Shown here: one piece after another, positions 4,741 through 36,046 of the stretch
Position numbering within the stretch: position 1 is the stretch's first letter
Layout: each line of letters starts with the position of its first letter
Origin: an uncultured Bacteroidota bacterium
GTDB taxonomy: Bacteria > Bacteroidota > Bacteroidia > AKYH767-A > JABDAW01
Length of the DNA: 37,593 nt
Assembly (NCBI GenBank): GCA_903844645.1
Contig: CAIMUP010000088.1
Coordinates: 1-37,593 of the forward strand
Reading direction: 5' to 3'
Translations under genes and position numbers: made by a program
The notes under the pieces: generated by a model
Told to the model about the DNA's origin: nothing
Database searches by the model: none
The model's input: only the letters and a program-made list of their open reading frames with translations

Positions 4741-4944
4741 CCGTTAAAATGTCGTTCCTCCCCGTTAAAATGTCGTTCCTCCCCGTTAAGATGTCGTTCC
4801 TCCCCGTTAAAATGTCGTTCCTCCCCGTTAAAATGTCGTTCCTCCCCGTTGATATGTCGTTCCTCCTCGTTAAGATGTCGTTCCTCCCCGTTAAGATGTC
4901 GTTCCTCCTCGTTAAAATGTCGTTCCTCCCCGTTAAGATGTCGA
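4741..4944. repeat. 21-bp tandem array B (about 9.5 units)
   Basis: Nine complete 21-bp units and a partial tenth, each starting CCGTTAARATGTCGTTCCTC, with few substitutions (TAAAATG, TAAGATG or TGATATG). It fills the gap between the RND operon and the next gene. Stop-free frames exist on both strands, but they are a by-product of the 21-bp period and I do not call them genes. Confidence 0.95.
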
Positions 4945-8099: not shown

Positions 8100-10748
8100 A
8101 TGAAGATTGTTGACATAAGAGCAATGCGCGGTCCGAATTACTGGAGCATCTGGAGACATAAACTAATCGTGATGCGATTAGATATTGAGGACTTGGAGAA
8201 GTTACCAACGAATACTTTACCGGGCTTTTCGGAACGATTGGAGAAGCAATTCCCTACGATGAAATCACACCGCTGCAGCGAAGACTTTGAAGGTGGTTTC
8301 TTTCATCGCGTAAAAGAAGGAACCTGGATGGGGCATGTCGTAGAACACATCGCTTTGGAGATTCAAACCCTTGCCGGGATGGATGTCGGTTTCGGTCGTA
8401 CACGCAGCACAGGAGAGGAAGGAATCTATAGTGTTGTCTTCGCTTACATGGAAGAAAAGGTGGGTGTTTATGCTGCAAAGGCTGCTGTTCGCATTGCAGA
8501 TGCTTTGGTCAAGAATGTTGCTTATGACATAACAGAAGACATCCAAACCATGCGTGAGATAAGGGAAGATGAACGTCTTGGTCCATCCACAGGTTCCATC
8601 GTAGATGAAGCTAAGAGCCGCGGCATTCCTTGGATAAGATTGAATCGCCATTCGTTGGTTCAGCTTGGTTATGGCGTTAATCAAAGACGCATACAAGCCA
8701 CCATTACTAGCCAAACCGGTAGCATCGCAGTAGAGATTGCATGTGATAAAGAAGAGACAAAGAACTTGTTAGAAGCCTTCAGTATTCCTGTTCCTAAGGG
8801 TCGTATTATTTATGATGAAGAGGACTTGGAAATTGCTATTAATCGCATCGGATACCCTATCGTTCTCAAGCCAGTGAATGGTAATCATGGCAGGGGTGCA
8901 ACTATCAATGTTATGAATTGGGATGATGCGAAAGAGGCGTTGGTAGTGGCAAAGAAGATATCTCGTGGTGTTATTGTAGAGAAGTTCATTACAGGTTTTG
9001 ACTACCGTGTATTGGTAGTTAATTATAAGTTTGTGGCTGCTGCAAAACGTACACCAGCAATGGTTGTTGGCGATGGTAAATCTACGATACAAGAATTAAT
9101 TAATGTTGTAAACAGCGATCCACGTAGAGGTTACGGACATGAGAAGGTACTTACTGCAATCAAGGTTGATGATAGCACCATGAATATTTTGGAAGATCAT
9201 AAACTTACATTGAGTTCGGTTCTTGCTAAGGGAGAAGGCTTGCATCTCAAGGCTACTGCCAATCTTAGCACCGGAGGTACTTCCACTGATGTTACTGATA
9301 TAGTGCACCCTAATAATATCTTCATGGCGGAGCGTATTGCTAAGATCATTGGCTTGGATATATGTGGTATTGATATTATGTCACCTGATATTTCTGTTCA
9401 GTTAAAAGAGAATAATGGAGCCGTTCTTGAGGTTAATGCAGCACCAGGTTTTCGTATGCACATTGCGCCTACAGAAGGACTTCCACACAATGTTGCAGAG
9501 CCTGTTATTGATATGCTTTATCCTCCGGGAAGTTCTAATCGTATTCCTATCATTGCCGTTTCCGGTACGAATGGTAAGACTACTACTACTCGTTTGATTG
9601 CTCACATTGTGAAGACTATGGGATACAAAGTTGGGTTCACTACAACCGATGGTATTTATATTCAAAACAGGATGATGGAACAGGGAGATTGCACAGGTCC
9701 TATGAGTGCAGAGTTTGTATTGAAAGATCCTACGGTAAACTTTGCTGTTCTGGAATGTGCAAGAGGCGGTATCCTAAAGGCTGGCTTAGGTTTCCATAAT
9801 TGTAATATCGGGATTGTTACGAACGTTGCTTCTGATCATCTGGGTCTTAAGTCTATTAATACTTTAGAAGAGATGGCGCGGGTAAAAGCTGTTGTTCCGG
9901 AGAGTGTTTTGCCTGATGGTTATGCTATTCTTAATGCTGATGATGAATTGGTATATAATATGCACAGAGGACTTGAGTGTAACGTCGCGTACTTCTCCTT
10001 AGATGAAAACAATCCTCATATAATCGAGCATACCAAGAGGGGTGGATTGGCGTGCATAGTGGAAAATGGCTACGTTACTATCTGTAAAGGGCTGTGGAAG
10101 ATTAGAGTTGATAAGGTTGTTAATATTCCTTTGACATTCTCTGGCAAAGCTATCTTTATGATACAGAATATTCTGCCGGCGGTGCTTGCTGGTTTCATTA
10201 ATAACTTTAAAATTGAGGATATGAGGCTTGCTCTGGAGACTTTTATTCCCAGTCCGACGCAGACTCCTGGTAGAATGAATTTGTTTCAGTTTAGAAAGTT
10301 CTCGGTCATGGTTGATTATGCGCACAACCCTGCCGGATTTATTGCGCTTGCTAAGTTTCTGGAGAAGATAGATGCCAAACCTAAGGTGGGCGTTATTGCT
10401 GGGGTGGGGGACAGGCGTGATGAGGACATTATAGAGCTTGGAGTGCTGGCGGCAAGGATGTTTGACGAGATAATCATACGCCAAGATAAGAACTTACGTG
10501 GTAGAACGGAGGAGAACATTATTGAACTTATTGTTGAGGGTATTCATCGGCAGGATGCGGGGCGTGGTGCGAAGGTGTTTAATAGGGAAAGTGACGCGAT
10601 TGATTATGTTATTAAGCATGCAAAGAAGGGTTCTTTCATTACTATATGTAGTGACGTGGTTCCCGATGCCTTAGATCAGATTATGAGGTTTAAAGAGATT
10701 GACGACAAGTTCGAAATCTCGAATGCCGATATTCCTAATCAGCATTAA
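8100..10748 (+). CDS. cphA: cyanophycin synthetase
   Basis: An 882-residue enzyme, full length for CphA1 (about 870-900), that polymerises aspartate and arginine with two ATP per dipeptide unit. The N-terminal domain (about 1-160) is followed by an ATP-grasp domain (about 220-470) with the nucleotide-binding stretch around Lys257 (VLKPVNGNHGRGATINV). A Mur-ligase-like domain follows, with P-loop SGTNGKTTTT (from Ser488) and DYAHNPAGF further on. It is in an operon with cyanophycinase. Its last codons (from 10730, through the stop) form the first half-unit of the tandem array downstream. Codon use drifts toward T-ending codons in the 3' half. Confidence 0.97.
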   Translation: MKIVDIRAMRGPNYWSIWRHKLIVMRLDIEDLEKLPTNTLPGFSERLEKQFPTMKSHRCSEDFEGGFFHRVKEGTWMGHVVEHIALEIQTLAGMDVGFGRTRSTGEEGIYSVVFAYMEEKVGVYAAKAAVRIADALVKNVAYDITEDIQTMREIREDERLGPSTGSIVDEAKSRGIPWIRLNRHSLVQLGYGVNQRRIQATITSQTGSIAVEIACDKEETKNLLEAFSIPVPKGRIIYDEEDLEIAINRIGYPIVLKPVNGNHGRGATINVMNWDDAKEALVVAKKISRGVIVEKFITGFDYRVLVVNYKFVAAAKRTPAMVVGDGKSTIQELINVVNSDPRRGYGHEKVLTAIKVDDSTMNILEDHKLTLSSVLAKGEGLHLKATANLSTGGTSTDVTDIVHPNNIFMAERIAKIIGLDICGIDIMSPDISVQLKENNGAVLEVNAAPGFRMHIAPTEGLPHNVAEPVIDMLYPPGSSNRIPIIAVSGTNGKTTTTRLIAHIVKTMGYKVGFTTTDGIYIQNRMMEQGDCTGPMSAEFVLKDPTVNFAVLECARGGILKAGLGFHNCNIGIVTNVASDHLGLKSINTLEEMARVKAVVPESVLPDGYAILNADDELVYNMHRGLECNVAYFSLDENNPHIIEHTKRGGLACIVENGYVTICKGLWKIRVDKVVNIPLTFSGKAIFMIQNILPAVLAGFINNFKIEDMRLALETFIPSPTQTPGRMNLFQFRKFSVMVDYAHNPAGFIALAKFLEKIDAKPKVGVIAGVGDRRDEDIIELGVLAARMFDEIIIRQDKNLRGRTEENIIELIVEGIHRQDAGRGAKVFNRESDAIDYVIKHAKKGSFITICSDVVPDALDQIMRFKEIDDKFEISNADIPNQH

Positions 10749-11862
10749 GCAACCAACAATCGGTCGGTTGGTATTCCTAATTGGCATTAAGCAATTGTAA
10801 ATCGGTCGGTTGGTATTCCTAATTGGCATTAAGCAATTATAAATCGGTCGGCTGGTATCGGAAAAACGAATTCTGGTATTGGAAAAACGAATTCTGGTAT
10901 CGGAAAAATGAATTCTGGTATTGGAAAAACGAATTCTGGTATCGGAAAAACGAATTCTGGTATCGGAAAAACGAATTTTGGTATCGGAACTTCTGGTTTT
11001 GGTACTGTAATTTGCAGTTACAATACTGTTCCTGCCTCGAACAATACCAAAACTCCCACGAACAATACCAAAACTCCCTCGAACAATACCGAAACTTCGG
11101 TTTTCAATACCATTAGAATGAGTTTTCATACCATTCGAATGAGTTTTCATACCATTGGAAGGCGTTTCAATACCATTAAAATGAGCTTTTATACCAAAGG
11201 AATAAAAAAACATATGTTTTTTTTTAGTTGCAATACCAAAAGTCAGTTTACTGGTATTGCTCCCCGTAGCAGCGGTATCAAAACTCGCAGGACTGGTATT
11301 GAAACTCCGAGTTTTGGTATTGGAACTCCGAGGAGCAGTATTGAAACGGTCGGGAACAGTATTGCAACTAAAAAAAACATATGTTTTTTATAAAATGTGG
11401 TATTGGAACTCAAAAAAGAGGTATTACAAGAGCTACCACCAATACCAAAACTCCCGAGAGCAATACCAAAACTCCCGCGAAGAATACCAAAACTCTCTCG
11501 AGCAATACCAAAATTCTCTCGAGCAATACTAAAACTCCCTAGAACAATACCGAAACTCTATCGAGAAATACCAACACTCCCTCGAAGAATACCAAAACTC
11601 ACTCGAGCAATACTAAAACTCCCTCGAACAATACCAAATCTCCCGCGAACAATACCAAATCTCCCGCGAGCAATACCGGAACTCCCGCGAACAATACCGG
11701 AACTCCCGCGAGCAATACCGGAACTCACTTGAACAATACCGGAACTCACTTGAACAATACCAACACTCTCGCGAACAATACCGGAACTCTCGCGAACAAT
11801 ACCGGAACTCCCGAGAACAGTATTGTAATCGGGAATTGCGATACCAAATCTGATTCTGCAAG
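10730..11862. repeat. 21-bp register array C (1.1-kb mosaic)
   Basis: Three 42-bp units (10730-10855), the first starting inside the end of cphA, contain TATTCCTAA, GCATTAAGCAA and ATCGGTCGG. They pass without a break into 48 units at 10856-11862: 47 of 21 bp and one of 20 bp (11360-11379). Every one of the 48 starts with TA, usually inside RRTAYY (GGTATT/GGTATC or the reverse AATACC/AATACT). The other 15 bp change in blocks: GGAAAAACGAATTCT, then CAAAACTCCCTCG, ATTAGAATGAGTTTT, and GGAACTCCCGCG types. Orientation switches about four times. It fills the gap between cphA and the converging ABC permease. An 11-bp inverse of the cphA-tail motif (TTGCTTAATGC, 11865-11875) closes the far end. No gene is called here; 11876-12007 holds nothing recognisable except a weak hairpin (11869-11890). 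Confidence 0.95.
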
Positions 11863-14450: not shown

Positions 14451-14496
14451 AATTTTTATGGGATAATAAAGGGAACGAAAAGCGAAAAGAGACATT

Positions 14497-14727
14497 CTTA
14501 CTGCGGGTTCAAATCTTCTTATTGCGGGTTCAAATCTTCTTAATGCGGGTTCAAATCTTCTTAGTGCAGGCTCAAATCTTCTTAGTGCAGGTCTTAATCT
14601 TCTTAGTGCAGGTTTGAATCTTCTTAGTGCAGGTTTGAATCTTCTTAGTGCAGGTTCAAATCTTCTTAGTGCGGGTCTTAATCTTCTTAGTGCAGGTCTT
14701 AATCTTCTTAGTGCAGGTTCAAATCTT
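14497..14727. repeat. 21-bp tandem array D (11 units)
   Basis: Eleven 21-bp units of the type CTTAGTGCAGGTTCAAATCT. The first three have CTTACTGCGGG, CTTATTGCGGG and CTTAATGCGGG, and the inner bases alternate between GGTTCAAAT, GGTCTTAAT and GGTTTGAAT. It lies between the 3' end of cmk and the promoter of the ABC operon. The remaining 14728-14805 shows nothing recognisable. Confidence 0.95.
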
Positions 14728-14805
14728 CTTATGTTTAGTGTCTTCCTCCACTTTTTTACTATCTAATTAAGCGGTATTTTACAACACTTTATAGATTTCA
14801 AGGAA

Positions 14806-15537: not shown

Positions 15538-16605
15538 TTACAGCCTTTTCTTAGTAAAGAATTCCGAAAGATTCGTAACCAAAGTGAAGTGATTCGAGCC
15601 GCCCACCGGGGAATAAATAGCATATCCATAACTAAAATTAAACTTGGAAATACGCACCCCAATTCCGAATGAAAGCCCCGCAGAAAAGTTATTCGCTATC
15701 TTTAATTCCTTCCTTCGCTCATAATTATATCCGAAGCGGAGGTTGATATTCTTAGAGATTAACACTTCCATTCCGACCACCACATGCCGCATTATTTTAT
15801 CCCCAAAAGTGTTCTTCGCAAAGGTGGTATCACCCGATACAGGGTCAATGGTAATCGAATCTTTCGGGTTGATGTATGATATATCGAATTGCTCCAGATG
15901 CCTTGCCGTGATTGAGAAGCGGAAGGGAGTATGCTTTAATCTTTTCGACATCGCCAGCTCCACTTCAAAGGGCAAAGATTCCCGATTTCCCGGACGGTAG
16001 GTGGTGATTTGTGCACCGATATTCTTAATGACTGCCGCCAAGGTGAACTCATGTTTCTTGCTGTAATAAGTCCCCGCAATATCTACCGCCATCCCCAAAG
16101 AATTATATTGCTCCAGCGAAGAATAAATCGTTTTGAGATTGGCACCGATAGAGAAATTAGTATCAATCACCTTCCCCCAACCGATGTTTAAATCATAATC
16201 GCCGGCAGAGAAATGATTCGTAAGATTGCCCACCGAATCCGTTCCTTGGAAGTCACCATAGTTGACAAAGTGCATACTTACACCGAATGTTCCTGCCCTT
16301 CCGGCATCCATAGCGTAAGCAACATATCCCCAATTAATACCCGAGAAATAGCTGACATAACTAATCGAAAACTGGTTGCTCATCGAGGAATCCAACAAAG
16401 AAGGATTCTGAAAAGCAGAGTTCACATCACTATCGCGGACGGCTATGTTTTGCCCACCCATCGCCGCAATACGGGCAGAGGAAGGAAGGTTGAGAAATTG
16501 ATAAGTACCGCTACCCCCAATCTGGGCACGGCTTTGTTGGGCAAGGCTCATGCAAAGAAAGACGAGAACTTGTATTGCGAGAAAAGTAACCTGTTTTATT
16601 TTCAT
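15538..16605 (-). CDS. porQ: type IX secretion system protein PorQ
   Basis: A 355-residue outer-membrane beta-barrel of the FadL/PorV-like group. The signal peptide ends near AQQSRAQ, and the mature protein begins with the PorQ landmark IGGSGTYQFLNLPSSARIA, then GGQNIAVRDSDVN and ALQNPSLL-like and GINWGYVAYAMDAGRAGTF segments. PorQ acts in the attachment complex of the T9SS, which processes proteins carrying C-terminal sorting domains such as the three encoded in this window. The start is supported by the near-consensus box TTACTTTG six bases before the ATG. Confidence 0.92.
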   Translation of the reverse strand: MKIKQVTFLAIQVLVFLCMSLAQQSRAQIGGSGTYQFLNLPSSARIAAMGGQNIAVRDSDVNSAFQNPSLLDSSMSNQFSISYVSYFSGINWGYVAYAMDAGRAGTFGVSMHFVNYGDFQGTDSVGNLTNHFSAGDYDLNIGWGKVIDTNFSIGANLKTIYSSLEQYNSLGMAVDIAGTYYSKKHEFTLAAVIKNIGAQITTYRPGNRESLPFEVELAMSKRLKHTPFRFSITARHLEQFDISYINPKDSITIDPVSGDTTFAKNTFGDKIMRHVVVGMEVLISKNINLRFGYNYERRKELKIANNFSAGLSFGIGVRISKFNFSYGYAIYSPVGGSNHFTLVTNLSEFFTKKRL

Positions 16606-18829: not shown

Positions 18830-19018
18830 TTCCGATAGCCTCGAAACGCCTTCCGATAGCCCCGAAACGTGTTCCGATACCCTCGAATCGTCTTCCTACC
18901 CCTTCAAAACGTGTTCCGATACCCTCGAATCGTCTTCCTACCCCTTCAAAACGCTTTCCTACCCCTTCAAAACGCTTTCCCACCCCTTCAAATCGCTTTC
19001 CTACCCCTTCATAATGAC
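18830..19018. repeat. 21-bp tandem array F (9 units)
   Basis: Nine 21-bp units of two interleaved types: TTCCGATACCCTCGAATCGT and TTCCTACCCCTTCAAAACGC. It lies in a convergent gap. The first units carry GATAGC or GATACC, later ones CCTACC, so the TA step keeps its register, with a 1-bp shift between types. Confidence 0.93.
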
Positions 19019-19113: not shown

Positions 19114-20445
19114 TTATTCCGAAATCTTAACCAATTTTCCATGACTCAAAGGAACATTCCCTTGCATAAAAGTCAGAAAATAGATCCCCGAAGCAAAGTT
19201 TGACATGCTGATAATCTTTGTCTCTTTTGAATTAATACTATCTTGGAATAGAAGCCGTCCTTTTGTGTCATAAATTAAAACGGAGATGGTTTTATCATTT
19301 TGAAAACTCTCATTTACCATCGTTTTTATGGATAAATTTTCGGTGATGATGTTGTTGAAATCAAAAGTAATTGTTGGCTTGGGAGCATCTTTTATCCCCA
19401 ATGGAATGGAATAATTGACTTGCAAATCCATCACAACAGGGAGGTGTTCACTCATATAATATAAGGCATTCAAAACATTGGCAGGGACAGAAGTATTCGT
19501 TGGCGCATCAATGATTGCGAGGTTCGTGTGATTGCCATCTTGCCCAAGAACGTTGCAGGTGTCAGGGATATATTTTACCGAATCGGTGCCATCCATAATA
19601 GGCTGTGTGCAAAGAATCATGTCGAAACGATTGTCCATGCCTCCTGTTGAATTGCAGTCGCCAGGATCGGTAGTGCGAGTGCTTTGTGTAAGATAATTTG
19701 CAAAGGCAGTTGGGTTGTTTCCCCAATCGCCAGGCTGATTTACGGGATCAATGAAACGGATGTTGATATTGGAGGCATTGACCATGTCTTGGAAACATGC
19801 TTCATTGGATGACTGGGTGTTGAAGTCGCCCATGAAAACATAATTGCCAGGAGTGGTAACATGAGAATTTAACCATGACATGGCACCAGCAATTTCTGTT
19901 GCACGCTGGCTTGCATTCCCAGAACCAGACTTGTCGTGTACCAAAATAATATTTAGGAAAATAGTATCATGAGTGATCGAGAGCGCAGGACTTTTGTAGA
20001 ATAATTTATGAAGGTTAATATCGCTAATATTGGGATCGCCGCCATAGATGGTAGTAGTGCTGATGAAGCCAATTTTATTGGTATTATAGTAAATCATATT
20101 CTCTTTGGAATAACCCGAAACATTGGTGAATACACCATGTCCGTAGCATCCATTACAAACAGAATCCATGACAAAATGAATGACTGAATCGTTGCAGAAT
20201 GATTGGTAGGCATTCATCTTCATCAAGCCGATAATGTCGGGATGTACATAATTCAAGACCGTTCGGAGGTAGCCATGCTTGATAGAAGTATTCAACAACG
20301 GGCAATTCGAGGTGGCAGGGAAACCGTAGTTACCTACATTATAATTCATTAAGATTATAGTATCGGATTGCGATTGCTGCGCATGAATAGCAATGGAATT
20401 TCCAAAAGCTATCACACATAAGAGGTGGATAATTATTTTCTTCAT
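19114..20445 (-). CDS. secreted endonuclease/exonuclease/phosphatase-fold protein with T9SS sorting domain
   Basis: A 443-residue exported protein. The signal peptide ends near IHAQQ. An EEP (DNase I-like) domain runs from about 28 to 350, with a start like LMNYNVGNYG, the central HDKSGSGNASQRA, the catalytic GDFNTQSSNE, DNRFDMILC and the C-terminal SEHLPVVMDL. The usual metal-binding glutamate after PDI is replaced: the sequence is PDIIGLMKMN, with Lys76 in that position. A T9SS type A sorting domain occupies about 365-443 (LIYDTKGRLLF, ASGIYFLTF, GKLVKI). It is monocistronic and divergent from the TonB receptor. Activity is uncertain because of Lys76. Confidence 0.88.
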   Translation of the reverse strand: MKKIIIHLLCVIAFGNSIAIHAQQSQSDTIILMNYNVGNYGFPATSNCPLLNTSIKHGYLRTVLNYVHPDIIGLMKMNAYQSFCNDSVIHFVMDSVCNGCYGHGVFTNVSGYSKENMIYYNTNKIGFISTTTIYGGDPNISDINLHKLFYKSPALSITHDTIFLNIILVHDKSGSGNASQRATEIAGAMSWLNSHVTTPGNYVFMGDFNTQSSNEACFQDMVNASNINIRFIDPVNQPGDWGNNPTAFANYLTQSTRTTDPGDCNSTGGMDNRFDMILCTQPIMDGTDSVKYIPDTCNVLGQDGNHTNLAIIDAPTNTSVPANVLNALYYMSEHLPVVMDLQVNYSIPLGIKDAPKPTITFDFNNIITENLSIKTMVNESFQNDKTISVLIYDTKGRLLFQDSINSKETKIISMSNFASGIYFLTFMQGNVPLSHGKLVKISE

Positions 20446-23515: not shown

Positions 23516-24034
23516 TTAATTCGGGTTGATACGAATAGAAGCAACTACTTTTTCAATTGCATCCATCTCCTCTTTTATCATCAGACATTCATTATAAAGC
23601 TCCGTTACTCGGACTTTCAATTCAGGAATACGCATAGTCTGATTTGCCTTAAAGGTGAAAATATTTTTCTCAATATTCTTGTGCAACATTATTTCATCAC
23701 AAATATCTTTTTGGTCATTCAAATAAGACATCGTATCTTCATGAAATTTGCTATGCCTTTCGATCAAATCATTCATCTTGCTTAATGATTCTCCTCCTTT
23801 ATCCATGGCATAAATCAAGCCATCATACACTTTTTCGGGATCAGGGAACACTACTATCTCTGCATCCAGCATTTTAGGATAGGAATTAAATATTGTATTC
23901 CAGCCATCGGCTAATTTATCGCTTTCCCCCTTAATCGTAAGTAGGGCAATGGATTTATTTTTGATAAATTCCTTACCCTTCTCATCAAGGTCCAACAACT
24001 TCAATAATTCTTTCTTTTGTTTCTCTGTAAACAT
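23516..24034 (-). CDS. hypothetical coiled-coil-like protein (172 aa)
   Basis: I do not recognise this protein. It is soluble, charged and almost entirely helical in appearance (KQKKELLKLLDLDEKGKEF, then DLIERHSKFHEDTMSYLNDQ, then CLMIKEEMDAIEKVV). There is no signal peptide or membrane segment. A -7 box TACCTTTG at 24073-24080 supports the start at 24034. The gene is transcribed toward the TonB receptor. Nothing nearby indicates its role. Confidence 0.8.
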   Translation of the reverse strand: MFTEKQKKELLKLLDLDEKGKEFIKNKSIALLTIKGESDKLADGWNTIFNSYPKMLDAEIVVFPDPEKVYDGLIYAMDKGGESLSKMNDLIERHSKFHEDTMSYLNDQKDICDEIMLHKNIEKNIFTFKANQTMRIPELKVRVTELYNECLMIKEEMDAIEKVVASIRINPN

Positions 24035-24232: not shown

Positions 24233-24474
24233 GTTTATAACTGGTGCCAGTTATGAACCTAATGAGTTCAATAGGTGAAGAGCTGGCACTGGTTCTGAAC
24301 ATCTCCAGTTCAATAGTTTCATTACTCGTGTTGGTTCTAAACATCTCCGGTTCAATAGGGGTAAAATGAGGACTGGTTCTGAACATCTCCAGTTCAATAG
24401 GGGCAGAATGGGTACTGGTTTTGGGAATCCTGAACTAAATAGGGGCAGAACAGGTGCTGGTTTTGCCAGTCTTT
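24233..24474. repeat. 42-bp tandem array G (about 5 units)
   Basis: The motif TTCAATAG recurs at 24267, 24309, 24351 and 24393, with a diverged form (CTAAATAG) at 24435: exactly 42 bp apart each time. A typical unit has CTGGTTCTGAACATCTCC, then AGTTCAATAGGGG. Forty-two is twice 21, as in the first units of array C. It lies in the divergent gap between the 172-aa and 318-aa genes. Nothing is recognised in 24081-24232. Confidence 0.9.
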
Positions 24475-24491: not shown

Positions 24492-24504
24492 TAAAAATCC
24501 TATT

Positions 24505-24588
24505 CCTGTCAGCTTTTTCTCCTGACAGGTATGATTTCTCCTTAGTATTAAAAAAATAAAATACCTGTCAGGAGAAATACCTGCCAGG
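24505..24588. repeat. paired-hairpin element, copy B
   Basis: The first hairpin is CCTGTCAG-(9 nt)-CTGACAGG (24505-24529). A 14-bp perfect inverted pair, TCTCCTGACAGGTA (24518-24531) and TACCTGTCAGGAGA (24562-24575), could form instead of it. A third CCTGCCAGG follows. The layout mirrors copy A at 4631-4711. In the stems the bases differ but pairing is kept. The span 24589-24820 is AT-rich with nothing recognised. Confidence 0.7.
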
Positions 24589-24820
24589 AAATAACTCGTT
24601 AGCGAAGGGCATCTATTGTCATCAAAAATCCTGAAATAAATTGGATTATTGCAAGGAATCTCTTACTGCCATTTTTGTAAATATATCAGTGCAATTTTAT
24701 CAAATCCTTAAAATATGAACAATTATGGCACACGGTCTAAATTATTATTCTTGACTTTTTTAGCTGTAAAATAAAATATATCTGAAGTTATTACAACTAT
24801 TTCCCTGTTTTATAAAATTG

Positions 24821-24836
24821 TGGCACGATTAATGCT
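24821..24836 (+). promoter_or_regulatory. sigma-54-type promoter (-24/-12)
   Basis: TGGCACGATTAATGCT fits the RpoN consensus TGGCACG-N4-TTGCW with exact GG-N10-GC spacing and one mismatch in the -12 box. It lies about 75 bp before the ATG at 24910, leaving a leader of roughly 60 nt. No activator gene is in the window. Confidence 0.65.
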
Positions 24837-24909
24837 AAACAGAAAAGCAGGAAACAGATTAGCAGGTTTCAAACGAATAAAAACGATATTAACTAACTAA
24901 AGAAAGACA

Positions 24910-25866
24910 ATGCCAAGTTTAAACAGAGTGCAAACACAGTCCATGCGAGGAGTGGGTTTTAAGATTGATTTTTTAATGAACAAAGTAACTGGTCCACATC
25001 CGATGGTTTACGTTGGCGACTCCGCTACCTGGCTGAAGGTGGTGAATTATTCAGGCAGGCTGAACATCAACAGAAATGAAGTAATACGCCTCGAAGGATT
25101 GTTTAAGACGAACAATGATTTGATGGTGCCGGCTATCGAACTATTGGAGAAATGGGAGGCAGGCTATTATTCGACTTTTCTGAATGGAAATAGCTTATTG
25201 ATTTTCCCAAATTCAGACCGCGCCAGAATCGGCTTGAATGTGGAAAACGATATTACGCCGCCAAGAGGAAATTATCCGGACATAATGAACACCGGGGCGT
25301 TGGTAATTAGCGGCGATGCCCTACGGATAGCAGCCGGTTCTGCCCCAATGGCAGTGCCTACAATAGCAGCATTTACCTTGAAATATACACCAGCCAATCT
25401 GTATTACAATACCAATTCTGATTTAGCAGTGCTATTGATAGCTGCAAGAAAAGCAGTATCCGATATGTTGGCAGAAGGCATCGCATTGTGCAATAAAACA
25501 GATAAGGAAATAGAGGTTCATTTCGATGAAGGCGACAAACCAGCGATGCGCCATAATTCAGAATATTGGGGAGTGCATTATTCCTCATCAACGCCTATCA
25601 GTTACTTCGCTCTGACCGTCTTAGAAACCATTACCAATATCGCTCTGGAGCATGTAATTCTCTTTGCCCACCCAGGATTGGAGGAAGGTGAGACGAACGA
25701 AGAAGGCTACGATAGTATGAACATTCATACCTTCGGAACGGTTACCGTAAATTATACACTGACGGGCTACTTTCCCGGCAGCGTAGTTTTTGAAACAGAA
25801 GAAGGCGAGACCATCGTAAGGACATTATTCCTGACTCCGATTCCGCCTCCGCCACCTGTAGTTTAA
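24910..25866 (+). CDS. hypothetical protein (318 aa), sigma-54 candidate target
   Basis: I do not recognise this protein. It has no signal peptide or membrane segment and ends in a proline run followed by V-V (PPPPPVV). The middle has a helical segment (LLIAARKAVSDMLAEGIALC). The remainder looks beta-rich (TFGTVTVNYTLTGYFPGSVVFETEEGE). The gene stands alone, with a sigma-54-type promoter upstream and a strong terminator 25 bp after the stop, an arrangement expected for a conditionally but strongly expressed product. Its role cannot be inferred. Confidence 0.85.
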   Translation: MPSLNRVQTQSMRGVGFKIDFLMNKVTGPHPMVYVGDSATWLKVVNYSGRLNINRNEVIRLEGLFKTNNDLMVPAIELLEKWEAGYYSTFLNGNSLLIFPNSDRARIGLNVENDITPPRGNYPDIMNTGALVISGDALRIAAGSAPMAVPTIAAFTLKYTPANLYYNTNSDLAVLLIAARKAVSDMLAEGIALCNKTDKEIEVHFDEGDKPAMRHNSEYWGVHYSSSTPISYFALTVLETITNIALEHVILFAHPGLEEGETNEEGYDSMNIHTFGTVTVNYTLTGYFPGSVVFETEEGETIVRTLFLTPIPPPPPVV

Positions 25867-25890
25867 TCACAATATTTATTTAATAAAAGA

Positions 25891-25923
25891 AAAAAGCCTC
25901 TCGATAATTGAGAGGCTTTTTTT
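25891..25923. terminator. strong rho-independent terminator
   Basis: AAAAAGCCTCTC-GATAATT-GAGAGGCTTTTT: a perfect stem of about 12 bp with a T-run on one side and an A-run on the other, so it can act in both directions. It lies 25 bp after the 318-aa gene. Confidence 0.93.
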
Positions 25924-26129: not shown

Positions 26130-27971
26130 ATGAAGAAAAATTTATTAGCAATCGTATTGATGATCGTATCATCAATGTTCATGAAATCACAGGCTGTTAC
26201 TGTGGTAAACGTGCAAGACTCCATTTCGGTAAACACCCACTGGACTTGCGACAAACAGTATTTACTTTTCGGTTACGTTTATGTAACGAGTGGTGCCACC
26301 CTCACCATTGATGCCGGAGTAATTATCAAGGGAGACAAGAACTCCAAAGGCTCGCTCATCGTGGAACGCGGTGCCAAGATTATGGCGATGGGAACCCTGA
26401 ATGCTCCTATCGTTTTCACCTCCAATCAAGCGATGGGAAACAGAACCTATGGCGACTGGGGCGGAGTGATTTTATGTGGCACCGCACCAAATAATTGGAA
26501 TGGCGGTGTTGCCCAAGTAGAAGGCGGTCCACGCTCCTTGTATGGCGGAACAAATCCGCATGACAACAGTGGCGAGATGCACTTTGTCAGGATTGAATTT
26601 GCGGGCATCGCATTCTCTCCGAACAATGAAATCAATGGCTTGACTTTCTGCTCTGTTGGCGATGCCACGCAGGTAGATCACATCCAGGTTTCCTACTCTG
26701 GCGATGATAGCTACGAATGGTTTGGCGGTACTGTGAACACCAAGTGTCTTGTTGCCTTTTGTGGTTGGGATGATGACTTTGATACCGACAATGGTTACCA
26801 AGGAATGAACCAGTATGGCATGGCTTTGCGTGATCCTTTCGCAGCCGATCAATCAGGTTCCAAGTCCTTTGAATCCGACAGCTATCAAGCAGGGACTTAT
26901 ACCGGATTGACTTTTGATTCAACCATGATTACCCGTCCAGTCTTTGCAAATTATACCTGTGTGGGCGGCTTGGTAAGCCCTACTTCCACGGCTTATGATC
27001 CGCAGTTTGTAGCTGCTGCACATATTCGCAGAGGTAGTGCCATCAGTATTTTGAATTCATTGCTGATTGGTTATCCTGCTGGCATTTTGATTGATGAGTC
27101 ATCAAGCTCTTTCGGTTCTACCATAGCTAATTTGGTAAGTGGTGAATCACAAATAAAAGGGGTAGCCGTTGCAGGGATTCCTGCAGGTAATGCCCCCGGG
27201 CCAAAAGAAGTTTTCTTTGTGCATGATGGTGCTCGTTCGCTTACGCCTACCACTGCTTATGGCGATACAGCCATATATTCTTTTGCGCCATGGACAGGTC
27301 CTTGGGGTTTCTTCCTGGATACTGCGAATCACAATAAAATTTATCCTAACGAACAGACAGGATTACGTTTGAATAATCCGTTTAACCTTGCAAATCCTGT
27401 GTTTGTGCCTACGAGCACTTCTCCTGTTGCATACAATGCTGCCCACGCATTCCATCCAACGATGCCTATTAATTATGATACTACCGGCAACTATGCGAAC
27501 TATAATGTTCCGGCATTGGCACCGGTATCTGTGATGAATAGTTATATACTTGCCAATCCATTCTTCACGGTTGAGAATCATGTTGGTGCATTCAATTATA
27601 CAGGCAACACGAGCGATAACTGGACATCGGGTTGGTGCAATTGGGATCCATTGAATACCGATTATTCCAACGTATGTTCAAACAATGCCGTACCGGTTTA
27701 TGAGGCTAACAAATTATACCTTCGTGTTTCTCCAAACCCTGCTACCGACCATGGAATGATAGGATACCGAGTTCAGGAAAATACCAATGTAGCGATTGCA
27801 TTGTATGATGTTATTGGTACCAAAGTTATGGATATTTTCAATGGCAATGTTACCGCCGGGGCTTATGCTTATAAGTTTGAAACATCCAATATAGCAGCCG
27901 GTGTTTACTTCATCAATGTGAAAACGAAGACGACCCAAGAGAATATCAAATTGGTTATCTCTAAGAAATAA
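26130..27971 (+). CDS. secreted beta-helix-like protein with T9SS sorting domain
   Basis: A 613-residue exported protein. The signal peptide ends near KSQA. The body resembles a family of T9SS cargo proteins common in Bacteroidota: HWTCDKQYLLFGYVYV, then ATLTIDAGVIIKGD, TYGDWGGVILCG, GEMHFVRIEFAG, and YSGDDSYEWFGGTVN with an acidic DDDFDTDNGYQG loop that may bind calcium. A type A sorting domain is at about 535-613 (LRVSPNPATDHG, YDVIGTKVMDIF, AAGVYFINV, KLVISKK). Its biochemical function is unknown. It is monocistronic and closed by a terminator. Confidence 0.9.
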   Translation: MKKNLLAIVLMIVSSMFMKSQAVTVVNVQDSISVNTHWTCDKQYLLFGYVYVTSGATLTIDAGVIIKGDKNSKGSLIVERGAKIMAMGTLNAPIVFTSNQAMGNRTYGDWGGVILCGTAPNNWNGGVAQVEGGPRSLYGGTNPHDNSGEMHFVRIEFAGIAFSPNNEINGLTFCSVGDATQVDHIQVSYSGDDSYEWFGGTVNTKCLVAFCGWDDDFDTDNGYQGMNQYGMALRDPFAADQSGSKSFESDSYQAGTYTGLTFDSTMITRPVFANYTCVGGLVSPTSTAYDPQFVAAAHIRRGSAISILNSLLIGYPAGILIDESSSSFGSTIANLVSGESQIKGVAVAGIPAGNAPGPKEVFFVHDGARSLTPTTAYGDTAIYSFAPWTGPWGFFLDTANHNKIYPNEQTGLRLNNPFNLANPVFVPTSTSPVAYNAAHAFHPTMPINYDTTGNYANYNVPALAPVSVMNSYILANPFFTVENHVGAFNYTGNTSDNWTSGWCNWDPLNTDYSNVCSNNAVPVYEANKLYLRVSPNPATDHGMIGYRVQENTNVAIALYDVIGTKVMDIFNGNVTAGAYAYKFETSNIAAGVYFINVKTKTTQENIKLVISKK

Positions 27972-28154: not shown

Positions 28155-28322
28155 CGAGGGTATGGAGGGGGGTGAGGAGGGTGTGGAGGGGGTTGGGGAT
28201 GGTGTGGAAGTCATTGGGGATGGTGTGGAAGTCATTGGGGATGGTGTGGAGGTCATTGGGGATGGTGTGGAGGTCATTGGGGATGGTGTGGAATGCTCCG
28301 GGTAAGGTATAGAATGCTCCGG
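28155..28322. repeat. 21-bp tandem array H (8 units, G-rich)
   Basis: Eight 21-bp units of the type GGATGGTGTGGAAGTCATTG. The plus strand is almost pure purine plus T at the left end (runs of five and six G), where a G-quadruplex is possible. It lies in the convergent gap after the T9SS gene. The remainder of 27972-28452 holds two terminators and no gene. Confidence 0.93.
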
Positions 28323-35774: not shown

Positions 35775-35878
35775 CAAAATCCCCCGAATAAAACCCCCTC
35801 CTCCAAATCTCTCCCACCACCAAATGTTAAAATTCATAACTAAAAACCCCAAAATTTTAACTAAAAACCGCACTAAAC

Positions 35879-36046
35879 GCATTCCGTAGTAACCTGAATG
35901 CATTCCGTAGTTAACTAAACGCATTCCGTAGTAACCTGAATGAGTTCTGTAGTAACGTAAATGCATTCTGTACTAACGTAAATGCATTCTGTACTAACGT
36001 AAATGCATTCTGTACTAATGTGAATGCATTCTATACCATTAATAAT
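35879..36046. repeat. 21-bp tandem array I (8 units)
   Basis: Eight 21-bp units such as GCATTCCGTAGTAACCTGAA and GCATTCTGTACTAACGTAAA; the last is strongly diverged. It lies upstream of the carboxylase gene in a divergent gap. Outside this and the REP fragment, 35658-36133 has only promoter-like sequence and C/A-rich DNA. Confidence 0.95.

Follow-up and report, generated by a model that had tools for sequence, protein, structure and literature searches.

The 16-bp element TGGCACGATTAATGCT, found in a 37,593-nucleotide stretch of DNA from an uncultured Bacteroidota bacterium (hereafter the window), is probably a genuine promoter for sigma-54 (RpoN), of the type that this genome places ahead of its chaperone and protease genes, a reading to which we give a probability of roughly 55%. 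The genome encodes RpoN together with sigma-54 activators, the same element precedes groES, grpE, lon, ftsH, clpB and clpC, and in the window it stands before a lone gene for a 318-aa protein that is followed by a hairpin. How might such a promoter work? We infer that RNA polymerase carrying RpoN would occupy the -24/-12 element as a closed complex, which an AAA+ activator, most likely the Fis-like HTH protein encoded on contig C65, would open under protein damage or a related stress, and that transcription of the lone 318-aa gene by this polymerase would then start near 24847 and end at the hairpin (25890-25922). If the promoter is real, it connects an uncharacterized protein family with the response to protein damage and supplies a testable condition for its expression. 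From the controls there also emerges a compact and testable predicted sigma-54 chaperone/protease regulon for an uncultured Bacteroidota lineage, with a core site, members and a candidate palindrome for activator binding.

Position and form of the element

Read directly from the window, TGGCACGATTAATGCT occupies positions 24821-24836 (+), on the coding strand of the 318-aa gene (24910-25866, +), within an 875-bp intergenic region that separates this gene from a divergently oriented 172-aa gene (23516-24034, -). Its GG (24822-24823) and GC (24834-24835) lie 10 bases apart, and it departs from the consensus TGGCACGNNNNTTGCW (TGGCACG-N4-TTGCW) only by an A for T at 24832. A first-pass annotation had described the site in just these terms, with the invariant GG and GC, the 10-base gap and the single mismatch, and it was right in each. 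The first base of the element is 89 bp from the ATG at 24910, a distance resembling those of lon (88) and groES (70-85). Following the sigma-54 spacing convention, the predicted transcription start falls at 24847 (+), 12 bases beyond the C of the -12 GC, which would leave a leader of 63 nt.

Sigma-54 machinery in the genome

The annotation had suggested looking for rpoN and for enhancer-binding proteins, and both are present. A single rpoN (PF04552, E 2.5e-51) with an intact RpoN box, ARRTIAKYRE, is present in the genome (G000; 3.84 Mb, 98.7% complete), alongside two true sigma-54 AAA+ activators, on contigs C138 and C65, with the loops GAFTSA and GSFTGA. The C65 protein has the Fis-like HTH; the C138 protein has a receiver domain and no visible DNA-binding domain. 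The remaining PF00158 matches are Clp ATPases. The annotation had noted that sigma-54 is not universal in the phylum, but this gives the site no distinction here: sigma-54 is nearly universal among the relatives searched, with rpoN in 95 of 100, so its presence in this genome is no surprise.

The textbook consensus and chance

By the textbook consensus alone, TGGCACGATTAATGCT falls within what chance provides across the genome, and the excess is weak. Sites with at most three mismatches are at shuffle level in the window (43 vs 40.7 in shuffled sequence), and the whole genome holds 378 sites with at most two mismatches vs 296 for the reversed pattern, and 16 vs 12 with at most one, most of the one-mismatch sites falling within genes. 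Over 61 genomes (G000 and 60 relatives) the consensus-site totals are 780 vs 876 for the reversed pattern. Among the upstream regions of a 0.84-Mb sample, TGGCACGATTAATGCT is the sole site with at most one mismatch, where chance predicts between 0.09 sites (Markov model) and 0.18 (shuffled motifs); the Markov expectation of 0.094 upstream sites per 82 kb corresponds to about 0.2 in the 180 kb of upstream sequence scanned.

The background level of such sites in this genome and its relatives speaks for a rival account, in which TGGCACGATTAATGCT is a chance match and the gene is either weakly expressed from a degenerate primary-sigma promoter of the TAnnTTTG type or nearly silent. We regard this as a serious possibility that falls short of even odds. 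Consensus counting alone points to chance; the groES positive control shifts the balance.

Chaperone and protease promoters as a positive control

According to a survey of sigma-54 regulons, the sigma-54 targets of Bacteroidota include chaperone and protease genes, among them grpE and groES (PMC12316311), and we chose these two genes as the control for that reason; both are reported to be sigma-54-dependent in Bacteroides thetaiotaomicron, and grpE in Flavobacterium psychrophilum (PMC12316311). Ahead of groES we found TGGCACAATATGTGCT (-70) in G000, TGGCACGGATAATGCT (-71) in the sister species G001 and TGGCACAAGAAGTGCA (-85) in G003, and ahead of grpE TGGCAAACTGTTTGTT in G000 and TGGCAAAATCCTTGTT in G003. 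The groES site of G001 is nearly the sequence of TGGCACGATTAATGCT, identical at 14 of 16 positions, and no TAnnTTTG box was found before groES in any of the three genomes. Because the groES and grpE sites show the same feature, the non-T at position 12 of TGGCACGATTAATGCT is normal for this group.

We scanned 2.0 Mb, or 52% of the genome, where 1136 upstream regions measure 40 bp or more. The pattern TGGCA-N6-TTG lies upstream of eight genes in sense and one in antisense, and five of the eight encode Lon, GrpE, FtsH, ClpC and ClpB (by Pfam), which are every such operon that the motif search turned up in the scanned 52%, groES having been fetched separately. Spacings of 8 and 11 bases are likewise in sense excess in the scanned 52%, so the count alone is no proof and it is the identities of the genes that matter. 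A hand calculation puts the chance of five out of five operons falling among eight of 1136 regions at roughly 4e-12, a figure that overstates the case because the pattern was picked after groES and grpE, though the Lon and Clp proteases had been named in the paper beforehand. With the twelfth position relaxed, as TGGCA-N6-[AGT]TG 35-120 bp upstream of a start codon, the pattern takes in TGGCACGATTAATGCT at -89 along with the sites of groES, grpE, lon, ftsH, clpB and clpC. Another TGGCA-N6-TTG match precedes the gene for a 159-aa secreted protein whose LTXXQ and DUF4890 matches are below the curated cut-offs.

A matrix was built from nine chaperone/protease sites, with the window's site excluded. 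TGGCACGATTAATGCT scores 16.2 bits, third of the 1136 regions behind lon and ftsH (both in the training set), above every leave-one-out score of the known sites (8.1 to 15.7) and above the best antisense score of 14.9. At 16.2 bits or more, chance would provide 0.24 sites in the scanned 52% sample and about 0.11 between -120 and -35 (79,033 positions; product by hand). This rank, together with the fitting position and orientation, argues against a chance match. The annotation's "good sigma-54 promoter" is supported insofar as the element resembles the genome's own sigma-54 promoters; judged by the textbook consensus, it is barely above chance. If about ten true sites are assumed beforehand among some 162,000 positions, 16.2 bits give odds near 4.6 to 1, and these would fall to slightly above even because the activator palindrome and conservation are missing. 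One chance site this good somewhere in the genome would be unsurprising, which counts against the sigma-54 reading. In the same ranking, TGGCACATTCTTTGTA (score 15.0) lies at -47 before the gene for a 220-aa protein that matches nothing in Pfam (L151:11583-12245), another candidate sigma-54 gene.

Set beside the sigma-54 chaperone/protease promoters of Bacteroidota, then, TGGCACGATTAATGCT shares the -24/-12 element, its spacing, its orientation and its start-codon distance, whereas the window gene is neither a chaperone nor a protease, no comparable site precedes its relatives, and it does without the palindrome that lies beside several of those promoters.

A candidate activator palindrome

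In four of the six G000 chaperone/protease operons, a clear TGACAAnTTGTCA-like palindrome precedes the -24 element by 15-45 bp; the loci with such a palindrome are L131 (grpE), L056 (ftsH), L159 (lon) and L127-L129 (groES). At 9 or more of 10 matches, the form TGACAnnnTGTCA is confined, among the upstream regions scanned, to those of grpE and ftsH, 26 and 45 bp ahead of the -24 element, respectively. The lon palindrome has the form TGACAATATTGCA, and that of groES reads TGAAAAwTTGTC in each of the three genomes, at -35/-36. TGACAAnTTGTCA may be the binding site of the regulon's activator. It is not strictly defining for the regulon, however, because no clear copy was found at clpB or clpC.

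Within 220 bp upstream of the window's site there is no TGACAAnTTGTCA-like palindrome at 8 or more of 10 matches, and an earlier scan for palindromes with different spacing found nothing. Its absence favors a chance match, but it does not exclude a promoter, because the site of another activator would escape recognition. Could TGGCACGATTAATGCT then be a real sigma-54 promoter served by a different activator, either the C138 receiver protein or an unseen one, in a response unrelated to protein damage? The existence of a second activator with a receiver domain is in keeping with this idea, as is the missing palindrome, but the C138 protein has no visible DNA-binding domain at its end and clpB and clpC do without a clear palindrome as well, and we consider this alternative improbable.

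Returning to the chaperone/protease reading, its most far-reaching form holds that a divergent multi-copy family gives the sigma-54 protein-quality-control regulon a member, a new kind of stress protein, and that TGACAAnTTGTCA is the site bound by the activator; this combination is, in our judgment, less likely than not. If the site is real, the "specific response" that the annotation had envisaged is more fittingly understood as the gene belonging to the sigma-54 chaperone/protease regulon. The gene's nearest relatives have no such site. Against a role in stress it also counts that nothing ties the 318-aa protein itself to stress.

The primary-sigma alternative

Primary-sigma promoters of Bacteroidota (the sigma-ABfr type) consist of TTTG at -33 and TAnnTTTG at -7. 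This is the common promoter type in this genome, where TAnnTTTG boxes upstream of genes are far more frequent in sense (235) than in antisense (88) and peak 20-40 bp ahead of the start codon. The window gene differs, with weak variants only and no TAnnTTTG within 250 bp. The lack of a good primary-sigma promoter argues against the chance-match account, although it is mild evidence, because 45% of regions have such a box within 150 bp. Two weak primary-sigma-like candidates, both on the + strand, would serve that account: TTATTACA...TATAAAATTGTG at 24788-24822, a rival promoter that overlaps the sigma-54 site and has a low score of 3.5, and TTATTGCA...GCCATTTTTGTA at 24646-24679, whose score of 9.4 puts it near the 95th percentile for shuffled regions.

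The paralogs lend the chance-match account further support, since L044 and L050 have good primary-sigma promoters that overlap or adjoin the ends of their tandem arrays, and no sigma-54 site. A variant of that account supposes that the window gene once had an ancestral promoter near the end of its 42-bp array, which now lies about 490 bp from the gene and is separated from it by a dispersed palindrome, and that the gene has become nearly silent. The promoter region of the window copy does differ from those of its relatives, a difference that fits a newly gained sigma-54 promoter and a lost promoter alike.

The 318-aa gene, its family and its surroundings

The 318-aa protein belongs to a divergent, multi-copy Bacteroidota family, and has no family match in Pfam, NCBIfam or PHROGs. 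Of the 100 genomes searched, 7 contain relatives, several with more than one copy (three in G000, six in G001, five in G044); these relatives share the motifs GDxxRIAAGGxPM and WGVxY. In 6 of 16 relatives the C-terminal region matches the carboxypeptidase-regulatory-like domain (PF13620, PF13715), whereas the window protein itself does not; the N-terminal two thirds of the family match nothing in Pfam, NCBIfam or PHROGs. A structure prediction from a two-sequence alignment only gave a pLDDT of 30. A phage or plasmid origin was considered and rejected, as the gene has no PHROG, viral-contig or plasmid match.

The gene had been called lone, well-terminated and unknown. It does stand alone, it has no family match, and it is followed by a hairpin flanked by A and T runs (25890-25922; inverted repeat I11) that is a probable terminator, scored as terminator-like on the - strand, with the + strand T run read from the sequence; yet it is one of at least three family copies. 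Before its relatives we found no comparable sigma-54 site, the top score being 10.9, from a repeat unit, and in G001-G003 there is no syntenic ortholog, the neighbors not being conserved. For these reasons the site has no phylogenetic support.

Tandem arrays are a recurrent feature upstream of this family. The window gene is preceded by about three copies of a 42-bp repeat (24265-24420), and 13 of 17 family genes have, in the 700 bp before them, an array whose period is 42 or a multiple of 42, usually nearer the start codon than in the window; in G000, an array whose period is a multiple of 42 ends within 200 bp upstream of only 6% of genes. Besides the gene at 24910, arrays precede L039, L042-L045, L047, L048, L050 and L053-L055, which span several orders, each with its own unit sequence. 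The idea that the arrays of the family form a special palindromic class was dropped, their stems being much like those of other 42-bp arrays.

Between array and gene lies the dispersed inverted repeat I1 (24503-24590), with copies on C8, C39, C46, C83, C98, C99 and C142 and the arms CCTGTCAG / CTGACAGG; it is possibly a small mobile or terminator-like element. We rejected it as an activator site, as its CTGTCAG...CTGACAG half-sites appear to be opposite in orientation to those of TGACAAnTTGTCA.

Other features of the window and the genome

No RNA families were found within the window. Tandem arrays are abundant throughout the genome (about 295 per Mb), and 535 of the 592 arrays in 2.0 Mb have a period of 21 bp or a multiple. 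Roughly one in five genes of at least 150 aa is preceded by an array whose end lies no more than 200 bp away, and unit sequences differ between arrays. Further arrays in the window lie at 1-201, 4741-4943, 10730-11819, 14495-14731, 18830-19011, 28156-28293 and 35874-36032. The window also encodes PorQ of the type IX secretion system (15541-16605, -; NF033711, E 1.8e-113), and two proteins encoded near it (19114-20445 and 26130-27971) carry a type IX C-terminal sorting domain.
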